Assembly (NCBI RefSeq): GCF_030719295.1
Contig: NZ_CP120997.1
Span: forward strand, 1,798,001-1,862,000
Reading direction: 5' to 3'
DNA: 64,000 nucleotides
DNA from: Streptomyces sp. Mut1
GTDB lineage: Bacteria > Actinomycetota > Actinomycetes > Streptomycetales > Streptomycetaceae
This document shows positions 5,892 to 30,101 of the stretch, one piece after another. The translations under genes and the position numbers were made by a program. Below the pieces are notes generated by a model. It was not told the DNA's origin. It ran no database searches and saw only the letters and a program-made list of their open reading frames with translations. The first letter of the stretch is position 1, and every line of letters begins with the position of its first letter.

Positions 5892-6532
5892 GCGCACCGG
5901 GACCTGTGAGAATCGGAGGTATGGAAAGCAGTAGCAGCACGCGCCGCCAGGCCACCCGGCAGAAGCTCTACGAAGCGGCCGTCACCCTCATCGCCGAGAA
6001 GGGCTTCTCGGCGACCACGGTGGACGAGATCGCCGACCGCGCCGGGGTCGCGAAGGGCACGGTCTACTACAACTTCAAGAGCAAGACCGAACTGTTCGAG
6101 GAGTTGCTGCGCCACGGCGTCGGGCTGCTCACCGCGTCCCTGCGGACGGCGGCCGAGGAGACCGCCGCGCGCGGCGGCAGCCGGGTCGAGTCGCTGGACG
6201 CCATGATCCGGGCCGGCCTGGTCTTCATCGACCGCTATCCCGCCTTCACCCAGCTGTACGTGGCCGAGCTGTGGCGCACCAACCGCGCCTGGCAGTCCAC
6301 CCTGCTGGTGGTGCGCCGCGACGCCGTCGCGGTGGTGGAGGGCGTGATCGCGGACGGCGTGGCGGGCGGTGAGCTGAGCGAGGAGATCGACGTGCCGCTG
6401 ACGGCGGCGGCGCTGGTCGGCATGGTGCTGGTGGCGGCGCTGGACTGGCAGGCGTTCCAGCCGGAGCGCTCGATCGACGACGTGCACTCGGCGCTGTCCC
6501 TGCTGCTGCGCGGCCGCGTCAGCGGCCACTGA
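5888..6532 (+). CDS. TetR/AcrR family transcriptional regulator
   Basis: About 214 aa. The N-terminal helix-turn-helix is classic TetR: TRQKLYEAAVTLIAEKGFSA, then VDEIADRAGVAKGTVYYNF ending in the recognition helix. The C-terminal half is the ligand-binding and dimer domain. I place the start at GTG 5888, which overlaps the YhgE stop as GTGA and has GGAG eight bases upstream. ATG 5921 is the other candidate, but its GGAGG lies only one base away. It probably represses its own operon through the 14-bp palindrome at 2980-2993. The ligand is unknown. Confidence 0.85.
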   Translation: MSAPGPVRIGGMESSSSTRRQATRQKLYEAAVTLIAEKGFSATTVDEIADRAGVAKGTVYYNFKSKTELFEELLRHGVGLLTASLRTAAEETAARGGSRVESLDAMIRAGLVFIDRYPAFTQLYVAELWRTNRAWQSTLLVVRRDAVAVVEGVIADGVAGGELSEEIDVPLTAAALVGMVLVAALDWQAFQPERSIDDVHSALSLLLRGRVSGH

Positions 6533-6560
6533 GCCCGCCGGCCGGCCACGACCGCGTACG

Positions 6561-6623
6561 CACGAAGGCGCCGGTCCGGCGTGGCCCGATGCTTCCGGGC
6601 CCGCCCGACCGGCGCCTTCCGTG
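6561..6623. terminator. long hairpin terminator of the ABC/YhgE/TetR operon
   Basis: Arms 6561-6576 and 6607-6623 pair over 16 bp with one bulged G. The 30-nt loop can itself fold. It lies 28 bases after the TetR stop. Confidence 0.65.
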
Positions 6624-6822
6624 CTGCCGGAGGACCATCCCCCGTGACCCCGTGTCCCCCGTGGTCCCGAGTCCTCCGCCGCGCACCCCCGTTCGGATGG
6701 GAGCGCCGCTCCGGTTCCGCCGCCCCGTGCCGGCGGGTACCGGGGCAGCGCCCCTTCCGTGCCGACCACTCTGCCTCTCGGGCGGGTCCCGGCCCATCCG
6801 TGCGGCTACTCATCCCGCCCGC
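6624..6822. other. intergenic region upstream of the MacR-type box
   Basis: About 200 bases with no supportable ORF and no strong repeat. It lies between the operon terminator and the regulated promoter of the DUF4126 gene. Confidence 0.5.
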
Positions 6823-6838
6823 TGAGTACGCGTACTCA
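6823..6838. promoter_or_regulatory. MacR-type box (two 7-bp inverted half-sites)
   Basis: TGAGTAC-GC-GTACTCA, the core of a perfect 20-bp palindrome at 6821-6840. It matches at every specified base the MacR consensus TGAGTACnnGTACTCA that I recall for S. coelicolor MacRS. It is centred about 64 bases upstream of the predicted transcription start at 6895, a typical activator distance. A MacRS pair is encoded at 28180-30101. Confidence 0.7.
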
Positions 6839-6881
6839 GCTCCGGGCCTCCGCGCCCTGCCGCGCTGTCGGACCCCTTGGC

Positions 6882-6887
6882 TACGAT
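6882..6887 (+). promoter_or_regulatory. -10 box of the DUF4126 gene, leaderless
   Basis: TACGAT followed by seven bases and GTG 6895. Transcription would begin at the start codon, and no ribosome binding site is visible. Confidence 0.55.
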
Positions 6888-6894
6888 CACGTCC

Positions 6895-7509
6895 GTGTCC
6901 GTACTCCCTCTGGTGTTCACAAGCGGCTGGGCGAGCGGGATCAACGCGTACGCGGTGGTCCTCCTGCTCGGCATTTTCGGCGCGACCGGTGTCAGCGACG
7001 AGGTGCCCGCCTCGCTCCAGCGCACCGACGTGCTCGTGGTCGTCGCGGTGCTCTTCCTCGTCGAGGTGGTCGCGGACAAGATCCCGTACGTGGACACGGT
7101 CTGGGACTCGGTGCACACCGTCGTCAGGCCGCTGGCGGGCGCGGTCGTCGCGGCCCTGCTGGCCGGTGAGAGCGGTTCGCTGCCGCAGATCGCGGCCGGG
7201 GCCATCGGGGGCTCCACCGCGCTGGTGAGCCATCTGGTGAAGGCCGGCACGAGGATGGCGGTCAACACCTCCCCCGAGCCGTTCAGCAACATCGCGCTGA
7301 GCGCGGTCGAGGACCTGGGCGTCGCGGGCGTCGTCACCTTCGCGATATTCCATCCGTGGATCGCGGCGGCCATCGCCGGGACGCTGCTCCTGTTCGGCCT
7401 GGTGATACTGGTCTTCCTGGCCTCCCGCATCCGCCGGTTCCTGCGCCGCAGGGCGCAGCGCCGCGAGGAGAAACGCCGGGCCCAGGCCGCCTTCCCGCCA
7501 CCGGCCTGA
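6895..7509 (+). CDS. DUF4126 family integral membrane protein
   Basis: 204-aa protein with four or five hydrophobic helices (residues about 1-25, 45-62, 75-95, 135-165) and a very basic Arg-rich C-terminal tail facing the cytoplasm. The sequence LPLVFTSGWASGINAYAVVL at the N-terminus is typical of DUF4126. Function is unknown. An in-frame TTG exists at 6877, but GTG 6895 sits seven bases after a TACGAT -10 box with no Shine-Dalgarno, so I favour leaderless initiation there. The perfect MacR-type palindrome upstream suggests membership of an envelope-stress regulon controlled by MacRS. Confidence 0.75.
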   Translation: MSVLPLVFTSGWASGINAYAVVLLLGIFGATGVSDEVPASLQRTDVLVVVAVLFLVEVVADKIPYVDTVWDSVHTVVRPLAGAVVAALLAGESGSLPQIAAGAIGGSTALVSHLVKAGTRMAVNTSPEPFSNIALSAVEDLGVAGVVTFAIFHPWIAAAIAGTLLLFGLVILVFLASRIRRFLRRRAQRREEKRRAQAAFPPPA

Positions 7510-7560: not shown

Positions 7561-9069
7561 ATGGCACGAATTGCGGTGATCGGCGCCGGGATGGGCGCGA
7601 TGGCGGCGGCGGCCCGGCTGGCCGTGGCAGGCCACCGGGTGACGGTGTACGAGCGGTCCGGGACGTACGGCGGCTCGCTCGGCCGGCATGCCGCCGAGGG
7701 CTTCACCTTCGACACCGGGCCCGGTCTGCTCCCGCTCCCCGCGGTCTACCGGGACCTGTTCGTGAAGACCGGCAAGGAGCCGCTGGAGCGGTGCGTCACG
7801 CTGGCCCAGGTCGACCCGGCGAGCCGTCATGTCTTCGCCGACGGCACCGCGGTGTCCCTGCCGAACGCGTCACGCGCCGGGACCGTCGCCGCCCTGGACG
7901 CCGCGCTCGGCGGCGGGGCGGGGGCGAAGTGGGGGGCGTTCCTCGACCGGGCCGGGGATGCCTGGGACCGCTCGCGCCGGCCGCTCCTGGAGGAGCCGCT
8001 GCGCCCCGACCGGCAGGTGCTGGCCCGCGATCCGTATCCGGCCGAGGAACGGCGGCGGCTGCTGCGCCCGGCCCGGCGGGCGGGGACGGTGGCGGAGATC
8101 GGCGCCTGGGAGCTGGCGGATGCCCGGCTGGCGGCCCTGCTCGACGGATACGCCCTCGGCTACGGCCTGGACCCGCTGCGCGCCCCGGCGAGCGCGGCAC
8201 TGCTGCCGTACATGGAGGAGACGTTCGGCAGCTGGTACGTGGTGGGCGGCATGCGGGAGCTGGCGCGGGCGGTGTACGAGCGGTGCCTGGCGCGGAAGGT
8301 GGAGTTCGTCCTCGGCGCCGAGGTGGCCCGGGTCGTGGAGAAGGACGGCCGGGCGGCGGGCGTGGAGCTGGCGGACGGGACGGTCGCGGAGGCCGCCCAT
8401 GTGGTGCTGGGTGCCCGGCCGAGGCCGGATCTGGTGCCGGGTCAGGAGCTGTGGGGTGAGGGCGGGGTGACGGTGCGTCCGGGGGGCTCCGGCTCCGGCC
8501 GTTTCGTGGTCCTGCTGGCGCTGCGCGGGGCCCGGCCCGCGGGCACGGTGCACCGGACGGTGGTGCACCCGGCGGACGGGGCGGCCGAGCGCGAGGCGGT
8601 GTTCGGGGGCCGGACCGCGGCGCATCCCACGGTGACCGTGCTGCGGCCCGACGACCCGTCGACCCGCCCCGACGAGGCGCACGAGGCGGTGACGCTGACG
8701 GCGACGGTCGCCCCGCACGGTCCGGTGGACTGGACGGACGAGTCGCTGCGGGCGCGGTACGCGGACACGCTGATCGACGCGGCGGACGCGGCCGTGCCCG
8801 GCCTGCGCGAGCGGGTGCTGCACAGCTGGGTGCGGACGCCCGCCGAGACCGCCGCGGACACGGGCGCGGAGGGCGGCGCCGTTCCCCCGCCCGCGCTGGC
8901 GGGTGCCGGGGGCGGGTTCCTGCACGCCGCGAACCGCACGCGGCTGCCGGGTCTGCTGCTGGCGGGCGGCTGGTCCCATCCGGGCGGCGGTCTGGCGCAC
9001 GCGGGCATGTCCGGGGCGCTGGTCGCGGGGACCGTGGTCGAGGGGGACGGCTTCCGCGGGTCCCGGTGA
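7561..9069 (+). CDS. phytoene-desaturase-like FAD-dependent oxidoreductase
   Basis: 502-aa protein. The N-terminal dinucleotide-binding fold is VIGAGMGAMAAAARLAVAGH (GxGxxG), ending in the acidic residue of TVYERSG, followed by the FDTGPGLL segment typical of the phytoene desaturase/NAD(P)-binding-8 family. A C-terminal FAD segment reads GLLLAGGWSHPGGGLAHAGMSGAL. No other carotenoid gene is nearby, so it is more likely a broad CrtI-like oxidoreductase than part of a pigment cluster. The ATG at 7561 is preceded by a -10 box at leaderless spacing. It runs toward the following minus-strand gene, 19 bases away. Confidence 0.8.
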   Translation: MARIAVIGAGMGAMAAAARLAVAGHRVTVYERSGTYGGSLGRHAAEGFTFDTGPGLLPLPAVYRDLFVKTGKEPLERCVTLAQVDPASRHVFADGTAVSLPNASRAGTVAALDAALGGGAGAKWGAFLDRAGDAWDRSRRPLLEEPLRPDRQVLARDPYPAEERRRLLRPARRAGTVAEIGAWELADARLAALLDGYALGYGLDPLRAPASAALLPYMEETFGSWYVVGGMRELARAVYERCLARKVEFVLGAEVARVVEKDGRAAGVELADGTVAEAAHVVLGARPRPDLVPGQELWGEGGVTVRPGGSGSGRFVVLLALRGARPAGTVHRTVVHPADGAAEREAVFGGRTAAHPTVTVLRPDDPSTRPDEAHEAVTLTATVAPHGPVDWTDESLRARYADTLIDAADAAVPGLRERVLHSWVRTPAETAADTGAEGGAVPPPALAGAGGGFLHAANRTRLPGLLLAGGWSHPGGGLAHAGMSGALVAGTVVEGDGFRGSR

Positions 9070-28179: not shown

Positions 28180-28872
28180 TCAGGCGTCGTCCAGACCGCG
28201 CTCTATGGCGTACCGCACCAGCTCGACCCTGTTGTGCAGCTGGAGCTTGCCCAGGGTGTTCTGGACGTGGTTCTGGACGGTGCGGTGCGAGATGACGAGC
28301 CGCTCGGCGATCTGCTTGTACGAGAGCCCCTTGGCCACCAGCCGCAGCACCTCGGTCTCCCGCTCGGTGAGCTCGGGGGCCTTCGGCTCGTCGGAGGCGG
28401 CCGGGGCCGGTTCGGAGGCCAGCCTGCGGTACTCGCCGAGCACCAGACCGGCGAGGCCCGGCGTGAAGACGGCGTCGCCCGCGGCGGTGCGGCGGACCGC
28501 GTCGGTCAGCTCCTGGGTGCTCGCCGACTTCATCAGGTAGCCGGTGGCGCCGGACTTGACCGCCTCCAGGACGTCGGCGTGCTCACCGCTGGCGGAGAGC
28601 ACCAGGACCCGCAGGCCGGGCTGCGCGCCGACGAGGGTCTTGCAGACCTGGACCCCGGGCATGCCGGGCAGGTTGAGGTCGAGGACCAGGACCTCGGGGG
28701 TGACGGCTCCGGCCCGGCGGACGGCCTGCGGCCCGTCGCCGGCGGTCGCCACCACGTCGAAGCCCGCCTCGGCGAGGTCCCGGGCGACGGCGTCGCGCCA
28801 CATCGGGTGGTCGTCGACCACCATCACCCTGATCGTCCGCTGCCCGGTGCCCTCTTCGTGTGTCGCGCTCAT
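28180..28872 (-). CDS. macR: LuxR-type response regulator, MacR-like
   Basis: 230 aa. The receiver domain (about residues 14-130) has the acidic pair Asp20/Asp21, phosphoacceptor Asp65 in LVLDLNLPGMPG, and the conserved Lys in YLMKSAS. The LuxR helix-turn-helix (about 165-228) reads LTERETEVLRLVAKGLSYKQ and SHRTVQNHVQNTLGKLQLHN. Its ATG overlaps the kinase stop as ATGA. Gene order and sequence match S. coelicolor MacRS (SCO2120/SCO2121), a pair needed for development and antibiotic production. Its expected box lies upstream of the DUF4126 gene at 6823. Confidence 0.82.
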   Translation of the reverse strand: MSATHEEGTGQRTIRVMVVDDHPMWRDAVARDLAEAGFDVVATAGDGPQAVRRAGAVTPEVLVLDLNLPGMPGVQVCKTLVGAQPGLRVLVLSASGEHADVLEAVKSGATGYLMKSASTQELTDAVRRTAAGDAVFTPGLAGLVLGEYRRLASEPAPAASDEPKAPELTERETEVLRLVAKGLSYKQIAERLVISHRTVQNHVQNTLGKLQLHNRVELVRYAIERGLDDA

Positions 28873-30101
28873 CGGACCGAACCCGCCTTCCCCCGTGAAA
28901 CCTTCGGAACCTTCAATTCGACTTCGGTGCCCTGGCCGGGCACCGAGATCACCTCTGCCGTACCGCCCAGGTCGCGCAGCCGCCCGCGGATCGACAGGGC
29001 GACGCCGAGCCGCCCTTCGCCCTCGGCCTGCGCGAGGCGCCCCTCGGGGATGCCTGGGCCGTCGTCCCGGACCGTCACGATCACCTCGTGCGGCCAGTCC
29101 TCCAGCAGGATCCACGCCTGGGCGTTCTCCCCCGCGTGCGCCCGGACATTGTCCAGGGCCGCGCCGACGGCCGCCGCCAGTTCCGCCGCCGCCGGGGCGG
29201 GCAGCAGCACCGGGGCGCCCGGCTCCGCGAAGCTGACCCGGGAACCGGCGTGCGGGGCGAGCAGCGTACGCAGATCGCGCTCGCCGCCGTCCGCGTCGCC
29301 CGGCTCGTCGTCGTCCGTGTCGACGGTGCGGACGACGGCGCCCTCGGAGACGTCCTCGGAGACCCGGGTCGGGGGCACCAGGCCGCTGGAGACCAGGGTG
29401 CGCAGGGCGACCTCCTGCTCCCCGGCCATCCGGCCCAGCTCCGCGGCCTCCCCGCCGAGCGCGGCGCCGCGCCGCTGCACCATCGCGAGGACCTGGAGCA
29501 CGCCGTCGTGGATGTCCCGGGCCAGCCGCTCCCGTTCGCGCGTGGCGGCCTCGATCTCCAGGGCGCGGGCGAGGGTGCGCTCACTGGCGCGGGCGACCTC
29601 CACGACGTACCCGATGGCGATGGAGGCGACCCAGACCAGCATCACGTTGTGCAGGGTGTCGCGGCTGGGCTCGCCGCGCTCGATGAGGTTGGCGACGGCG
29701 ACGAGGCTGGAGGCGAAGCCGGCCCAGCGCCAGCCGCCCTTGATCGCGAAGGCCAGGACGGAGCCCGCGGTCCAGATGGACGGCAGGGTCGGTCCGTCGA
29801 CGTGCTGGGCCTGGAGGTCGGCGAGCGGGGTGACGATGATGCCGGTGAGGGCGATGGCCAGGTCGGCGCCGAGGAAGCGTCTGGTGCAGGCGGCGGCGCT
29901 GCCCACCTTGGGCAGGGTGGCGAGCGTCCAGACGGACATCAGCGACAGGAAGGTGATCGCTATCCAGGGCCGTTCGTAGTCGTGCCGGGCGAAGGCGGCG
30001 AGCAGGACCGCGTAGAGCATCGTCAGGACGCGGTACGCCGACAGGGCACGCCACAGCGGCTGCTCGACCGACATCCGTACCACGCGTACGCGCTTGACCA
30101 T
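28869..30101 (-). CDS. macS: MacS-family sensor histidine kinase
   Basis: 410 aa. Four to six membrane helices fill residues about 20-175 with almost no extracellular loop, suggesting intramembrane sensing. The dimerisation box is ERLARDIHDGVLQVLAMVQR with phospho-His198, the HisKA_3 type that partners LuxR regulators. The ATPase domain has N-box-like ALDNVRAHA and the G-box RDDGPGIPEG. ATG 30101 has GGAGG five bases upstream. It is followed by macR with a 4-bp overlap and preceded by plsC 36 bases away, probably one transcript. Confidence 0.85.
   Translation of the reverse strand: MVKRVRVVRMSVEQPLWRALSAYRVLTMLYAVLLAAFARHDYERPWIAITFLSLMSVWTLATLPKVGSAAACTRRFLGADLAIALTGIIVTPLADLQAQHVDGPTLPSIWTAGSVLAFAIKGGWRWAGFASSLVAVANLIERGEPSRDTLHNVMLVWVASIAIGYVVEVARASERTLARALEIEAATRERERLARDIHDGVLQVLAMVQRRGAALGGEAAELGRMAGEQEVALRTLVSSGLVPPTRVSEDVSEGAVVRTVDTDDDEPGDADGGERDLRTLLAPHAGSRVSFAEPGAPVLLPAPAAAELAAAVGAALDNVRAHAGENAQAWILLEDWPHEVIVTVRDDGPGIPEGRLAQAEGEGRLGVALSIRGRLRDLGGTAEVISVPGQGTEVELKVPKVSRGKAGSVR

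Follow-up and report, generated by a model that had tools for sequence, protein, structure and literature searches.

The window analysed here, i.e. the whole stretch of 64,000 nucleotides from Streptomyces sp. Mut1, carries a gene for a TetR-family regulator (5921..6532, plus strand; profile and orthologue searches), followed after its stop codon by a G+C-rich hairpin (6562..6623, strand-neutral) that was identified by folding and is likely a shared terminator. Further to the right lies a 20-bp perfect palindrome, GCTGAGTACGCGTACTCAGC, at 6821-6840. The next plus-strand gene after it encodes a DUF4126 membrane protein (6895..7509; PF13548, E 2.9e-50) and has a GTG start codon; the -10-like sequence TACGAT at 6882-6887 suggests that this gene is leaderless. 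A FAD-dependent oxidoreductase of the phytoene-desaturase type (7561..9069, plus strand), recognised by profile searches below the family cut-offs, is encoded beyond DUF4126.

The palindrome encloses a MacR-type box, TGAGTACGCGTACTCA, at 6823-6838, which starts 72 nt before the DUF4126 start codon. Over the 14 specified bases, this box shows no mismatch to TGAGTACnnGTACTCA, which we take to be the MacR consensus. A preliminary description of this DNA had reported both a perfect palindrome with a MacR-type box and, in the same window, a MacR-like regulator and a MacS-like kinase, and the two observations were confirmed. The MacRS genes are located on the minus strand, about 21 kb away from the box. 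The kinase (28869..30101), with DUF5931, HisKA_3 and HATPase domains, matched the NCBIfam model NF047322 'MacS family' with 486 bits (cut-off 300), and its gene adjoins that of a NarL/LuxR-type response regulator (28180..28872) assigned to the MacR type by profile and orthologue searches. Published reviews state that MacR has a consensus sequence, and membrane proteins and lipoproteins are described as its targets (PMC9739842).

Occurrence of MacR-type boxes

Within the window, the palindrome box was the sole match to the consensus at three mismatches or fewer; shuffled versions of the window gave at least one match at this threshold in 48 of 100 cases, the actual box having no mismatch at all. 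A scan of the whole genome, which the preliminary description had proposed, returned two exact sites against none for the reversed control. At up to two mismatches, eight sites were found versus five in the control, i.e. no clear enrichment of looser matches. Across 61 Streptomyces genomes, 123 exact sites (a total added up by hand) were found in 58 genomes, while the reversed control gave four, one in each of four genomes. Because of this difference between 123 and four, we regard the box as a real regulatory word and not as a chance palindrome.

Seventy-one of the 123 exact sites were clustered together with four near-exact sites of the own genome (75 in all). The largest other box family (27 of the 75 clustered sites: L002, at G000:C1:5008926, and 26 related loci) is located before a gene for a one-helix peptide of 41-48 amino acids, MLWSDPEN.., without Pfam match and flanked, as judged by eye, by acyl-CoA carboxylase- and Maf-like genes. 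In 23 of the 27 loci parsed, the box stands 34-36 nt before the ATG of the peptide gene, which is likely a core MacR target. Three further boxes of the own genome have one mismatch: that of L003 precedes a small membrane protein gene (74 nt before the ATG), that of L006 lies between lipoprotein-like and secreted-protein genes, and that of L004 (G000:C1:2769147) falls within a long terminator-like inverted repeat and may be due to chance.

A conserved module and its neighbours

The box is one half of a longer conserved module. To its left, a second TACTCA half-site (6807..6812, strand-neutral, ten bases from the box) and the word CCCATCCG (6793..6800, strand-neutral) are kept in register and together form a degenerate second site, the palindrome being the distal one. 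Using the pattern TACTCA-N10-TRRGTACNNRTACTCA with one mismatch allowed, we detected the module in 175 of the 200 Streptomyces genomes searched, as a single copy in 174 of them, against 0/200 for the control pattern; no match was obtained in the other 25. A few of these matches, namely that with one mismatch in G045 and the second one in G072, perhaps do not represent the cassette. As the pattern fixes the letters of the module, the complete (100 %) conservation of TACTCA and TRRGTAC is partly a matter of selection; this does not apply to the leftward -10 nor to the ATCCG part of CCCATCCG, which stands outside the search pattern and is invariant in 144 loci. In the wider family, the module was present in 98 of 150 genomes, belonging to 8 of 17 genera. 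About 150 bp are also conserved to the left of the module.

The preliminary description had taken DUF4126 for a MacRS target and perhaps for its most direct effector or sensor partner, with a box suited to activation. On this reading, carried further, MacR would activate the leaderless gene to the right as its main target. A box with at most four mismatches was found before 101 of 110 DUF4126 loci (at a distance of up to 150 bp for 89 of 98 loci and of up to 400 bp for a further 12 of 12), the 110 loci being drawn from two collections (30 + 80) that share some strains. The box begins at -71 to -73 relative to DUF4126 in 63 of 98 loci, and membrane proteins and lipoproteins are among the MacR targets listed in the available part of PMC9739842. 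The exact box was present in only 17 of 98 loci. The commonest form in the rest is the asymmetric TAGGTACGGATACTCA, most genomes carrying TAGGTAC in place of TGAGTAC. The spacing to the gene is nevertheless loose: the box starts at -36/-37 in 14 loci, where it would cover the DUF4126 -35 region, at -70 in three, and between -52 and -116 in the remaining box-bearing loci (two entries at -97, L052 and L081, are ties, with a TAGGTAC box at -71). Moreover, a box is missing from the 150 bp before 9 of the 98 DUF4126 genes, and in at least six of these nine genomes the module is located elsewhere.

In order to compare the two distributions, the 200 Streptomyces genomes were cross-tabulated by eye. 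The module was present in 121 of the 124 genomes with a DUF4126 match (a number that includes the remnants in G054 and G139 as well as partial matches), and also in 54 of the 76 without one (some of which may be misses, up to 15 candidates having been scored per genome). All 35 fetched loci without DUF4126 (L156, L170, L185, L207-L226 and L235-L246) keep the module, which stands before a FAD oxidoreductase gene (match starting 50-193 bp to the right). They include the S. coelicolor-like locus L225; as this locus lacks DUF4126 at the corresponding place, the DUF4126 protein is unlikely to be the most direct effector or sensor partner of MacRS. Altogether, a conserved MacR-type box before most orthologues examined, in a genome that encodes MacRS, keeps DUF4126 among the candidate targets, but the persistence of the module without DUF4126 and the loose spacing do not support the idea that the site is kept for this gene. 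We consider it improbable that DUF4126 is the main target; it may be a second, lineage-specific one. Our literature search met DUF4126 only in an unrelated context.

Several of the 35 loci still carry, as seen by eye, an apparent DUF4126 promoter with the first codons. In six of them (L208, L210, L213, L226, L235 and L244), the gene was seemingly lost by internal deletion, the leaderless promoter and first codons remaining.

Rearranged loci were also informative. In L227-L234, where the TetR/ABC block is inverted, the module lies in 8/8 cases between the convergent 3' ends of the TetR gene (60-182 bp to its right) and of a transglutaminase gene (match ending 213-703 bp to its left; Transglut_core in L227), DUF4126 being about 6 kb from the module. 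Eight S. virginiae-type genomes had seemed boxless; in five of them the module was located 58-99 bp beyond the 3' end of the TetR gene. G208 (S. candidus) carries it reversed, 30 bp beyond TetR. Placed between convergent 3' ends or past TetR in this way, the module has no protein gene to drive. The DUF3040-to-TetR block was observed in either orientation, with the small-RNA cassette on either side (L227-L234; G200-G208), which amounts to a local rearrangement. Loss of the box from the S. virginiae-type loci was considered and proved wrong for the same five of eight genomes; the other three (G201, G202 and G204) showed no module at up to two mismatches, and two-mismatch hits elsewhere in five of the genomes searched were taken for chance.

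These arrangements also bear on a two-way control, a variant of the reading favoured below, in which the module would drive a leftward small RNA everywhere and would in addition have been recruited to tune the adjoining DUF4126 or FAD gene. In 35/35 fetched loci without DUF4126, the module is followed on its right by the FAD oxidoreductase gene, and where DUF4126 adjoins the box, the latter most often starts at -71 to -73; against this, rightward spacing is loose and the TetR 3' end lies to the right of the module in 8/8 inverted loci. We regard such a dual use as possible, while leaning against it.

That the palindrome might instead be the operator of the adjoining TetR regulator was weighed as well, a TetR match being found upstream in 99 of 110 DUF4126 loci. 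TetR is however dispensable for the site: G211 and G219 keep the box without a TetR orthologue (best identities of 32 % and 30 %), as do all six fetched loci of genus g14, in which no TetR match was found within 3 kb, and exact boxes precede unrelated genes elsewhere. The TetR-less genomes refute the operator as a general explanation, and we hold it to be highly improbable for the palindrome described here. For their part, all eight S. virginiae-type genomes retain TetR (86-88 %). The conservation of the site is independent of both DUF4126 and TetR.

The leftward promoter and the predicted small RNA

The spacing of the module is rigid only leftward, with 40 or 39 nt to a -10 element, in contrast to the distances of -36 to -116 on the DUF4126 side. 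More precisely, the word CA[CG]TCT is found 40 nt from TACTCA in 121 of 145 loci and 39 nt from it in 13, and is absent in 11. In the leftward -10 (CAGAGT; 6768..6773, minus strand), which is this word read on the minus strand, position -11 is A and position -7 is T in 144/144 loci, with 13 loci requiring a shift by one nucleotide; the other 131, which are in register, lack the first T. The -35 is poor: inspection revealed a weak TGGGCC (6791..6796, minus strand), 17 bp from the -10 and overlapped by CCCATCCG. With a predicted start at about 6760, the palindrome would be centred at about -70 and the degenerate second site at about -45, beside the weak -35. This placement fits activation by a response regulator, although repression or two-way action may apply instead.

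The RNA predicted from this promoter extends from 6760 to 6562 on the minus strand, its 5' end at about 6760 and its 3' end at the terminator-like hairpin being both predictions. It begins with a long imperfect hairpin (6694..6760, minus strand) with loop CACGGGG, whose stem shows compensatory changes across loci. An expression describing this hairpin matched 137 of 145 loci, and in the loci counted the inner stem is either CCGCCG/CGGCGG or CCGGCG/CGCCGG; further variants, CCGCGG/CCGCGG (L114, L233) and CCGCAG/CTGCGG (L230), were noted by eye in loci missed by the expression. CCGCAG/CGGCGG, found in 14 of 137 loci, leaves a mismatch on either strand. In eight of 137 loci a stem pair survives solely as a G-U pair of the minus strand; no locus keeps one solely on the plus strand. 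Pairing between hairpin flanks scored 18.3 within loci versus 15.6 (sd 0.24) after shuffling partners (103 distinct pairs, 300 shuffles), and the plus-strand reading gave 17.8 versus 15.5; as shuffling keeps column make-up and not relatedness, part of this excess may be phylogeny.

Folded from its predicted start, the RNA forms one long hairpin in most loci folded (seven in one set, 11 in another), with z-scores from 0.05 to -3.8 across the 11 loci, out of 12 prepared, L234, which has no visible hairpin, being left out. Applied to the whole alignment, RNAalifold predicted almost no pairs on either strand. With the 42-sequence alignment A1 (47 representatives minus L222, L229, L231, L233 and L234), its result was weak, at 12 pairs only, four in the palindrome and two with double changes. 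Support for the hairpin comes from the targeted analysis of stem and flanks given above. Searching 6450-6950 against Rfam gave only a miRNA model (18.8 bits versus a gathering score of 55, E 3.9), i.e. no family match. The leftward RNA is unlikely to contain a conserved small ORF, ORFs of at least 10 codons being found in only five of 144 loci. ORFs of at least 60 codons facing away from the module in the eight inverted loci are, by position, antisense to the two neighbour genes.

The loop word GCCCCGTG was found at the expected place in 24/24 loci of genus g7 and in two of six of genus g14 (30 family loci); in the latter genus the promoter words remain, but only those two loci have the loop word at 55-190 bp from the box. 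Between TetR and the hairpin, CCCCCGT was counted 408 times in 171 loci versus 44.6 expected, and twice in the opposite orientation. In the window, this plus-strand word begins at 6639, 6656 and 6686 (6639..6692; ACGGGGG on the RNA strand). The strand-biased array (6639-6729 and orthologous stretches) corresponds, on the RNA strand, to the word of the hairpin loop. In the predicted folds of 60 loci, the unpaired fraction is 0.41 for the array word versus 0.24 for other G's, and 0.73 for the loop.

A small RNA has already been described at this place in S. coelicolor. In the available parts of the two accounts, scr2101 lies between SCO2100 and SCO2101, on the opposite strand to both, with a 7-fold higher level in an RNase III mutant (PMC5775266), and scr2100(d-), observed by RNA-seq and Northern blot, is encoded opposite to SCO2100 and downstream of it (PMC4681348). 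For both PCR primers given in PMC5775266, L225 contains an exact match, located for one at the 3' end of the TetR gene and for the other in the 5' part of the FAD oxidoreductase gene, and through these matches the TetR and FAD oxidoreductase genes of the window are taken as the SCO2100 and SCO2101 orthologues. The primer sites are 620 bp apart in L225 versus the 635 stated, with the module and no DUF4126 between them; one of the two primers also matches four other loci, and the L225 box differs at three of the 14 consensus bases. The primer labels for SCO2100 and SCO2101, as they appear in the available text, fit L225 only if exchanged. Since the primers flank the module in L225 and the published small RNA maps to that place, the cassette very probably represents the known small RNA scr2100(d-)/scr2101, the predicted RNA of the window being its counterpart. 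The strand assigned to the RNA draws on a G-U asymmetry in eight loci only, on a leftward promoter that is weak, and on the published strand, opposite SCO2100 in the parts available.

Candidate regulators and known systems

Taken together, we favour as reasonably probable that a MacR-type response regulator controls this leftward small RNA through the conserved promoter module, which faces away from DUF4126. In such a mechanism, a NarL-type response regulator, most likely MacR, would bind the palindrome as distal site and also the degenerate site CCCATCCG..TACTCA next to the weak -35; once bound, it would assist RNA polymerase in initiating transcription of a small, structured minus-strand RNA near 6760.

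MacR orthologues were found in 20/20 genomes of one set and, in another, in 58 of 61 family genomes representing 17/17 genera, so that MacR is more widespread than the module. Each of the 20 genomes also contains 56-100 regulator matches to MacR, and a different NarL/LuxR-type response regulator with a MacR-like site might bind the module, in which case the small RNA would belong to that system. The asymmetry of the commonest box form, TAGGTACGGATACTCA, points in this direction, as does the occurrence of TAGGTACNNRTACTCA at 41 sites in 37 of 61 genomes, about six of them outside the module by position. Conversely, TGAGTA- is present in the window, in 17 of 98 DUF4126 loci and in the g14 sites listed, and other exact boxes precede the small membrane peptide, which fits the MacR targets described. 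We therefore judge a regulator other than MacR unlikely, and retain MacR as the probable binder.

The box of this locus had naturally been assigned to the nearest annotated gene, an error corrected here as the conserved unit is on the other strand. In the published accounts, as far as their available parts go, the S. coelicolor small RNA has no regulator or function; a conserved, single-copy response-regulator module now stands at its likely promoter. More speculatively, and with rather low confidence, MacRS might work partly through a genus-wide small RNA whose loop CACGGGG, repeated as an ACGGGGG array, would act as a multi-copy seed or sponge. If so, a post-transcriptional arm, reading C-rich CCCCGUG start regions or titrating an RNA-binding protein, would be part of what MacRS does to the membrane and to development. 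Our literature search found nothing joining MacRS, small RNAs and Streptomyces.

Compared with the MacR regulon of S. coelicolor, the locus shares a box that fits the consensus we assume, TGAGTACnnGTACTCA, with MacRS encoded nearby; it differs in that the reviews, in their available parts, name membrane-protein and lipoprotein targets and no small RNA. Small RNAs controlled by response regulators are known from OmpR-MicF and GacA-RsmY/Z, and the reading proposed here likewise has a two-component system acting via a small RNA. The Rsm/Csr sponges resemble the predicted RNA in carrying a repeated short word, which here, however, is ACGGGGG and is not known to be linked to CsrA. Finally, scr2100(d-)/scr2101 occupies the same place, between the orthologues of the SCO2100 TetR regulator and the SCO2101 FAD oxidoreductase, and the strand predicted here; whereas no regulator is named in the available parts of the published accounts, the small RNA is here tied to a conserved response-regulator module that could be followed through the family.
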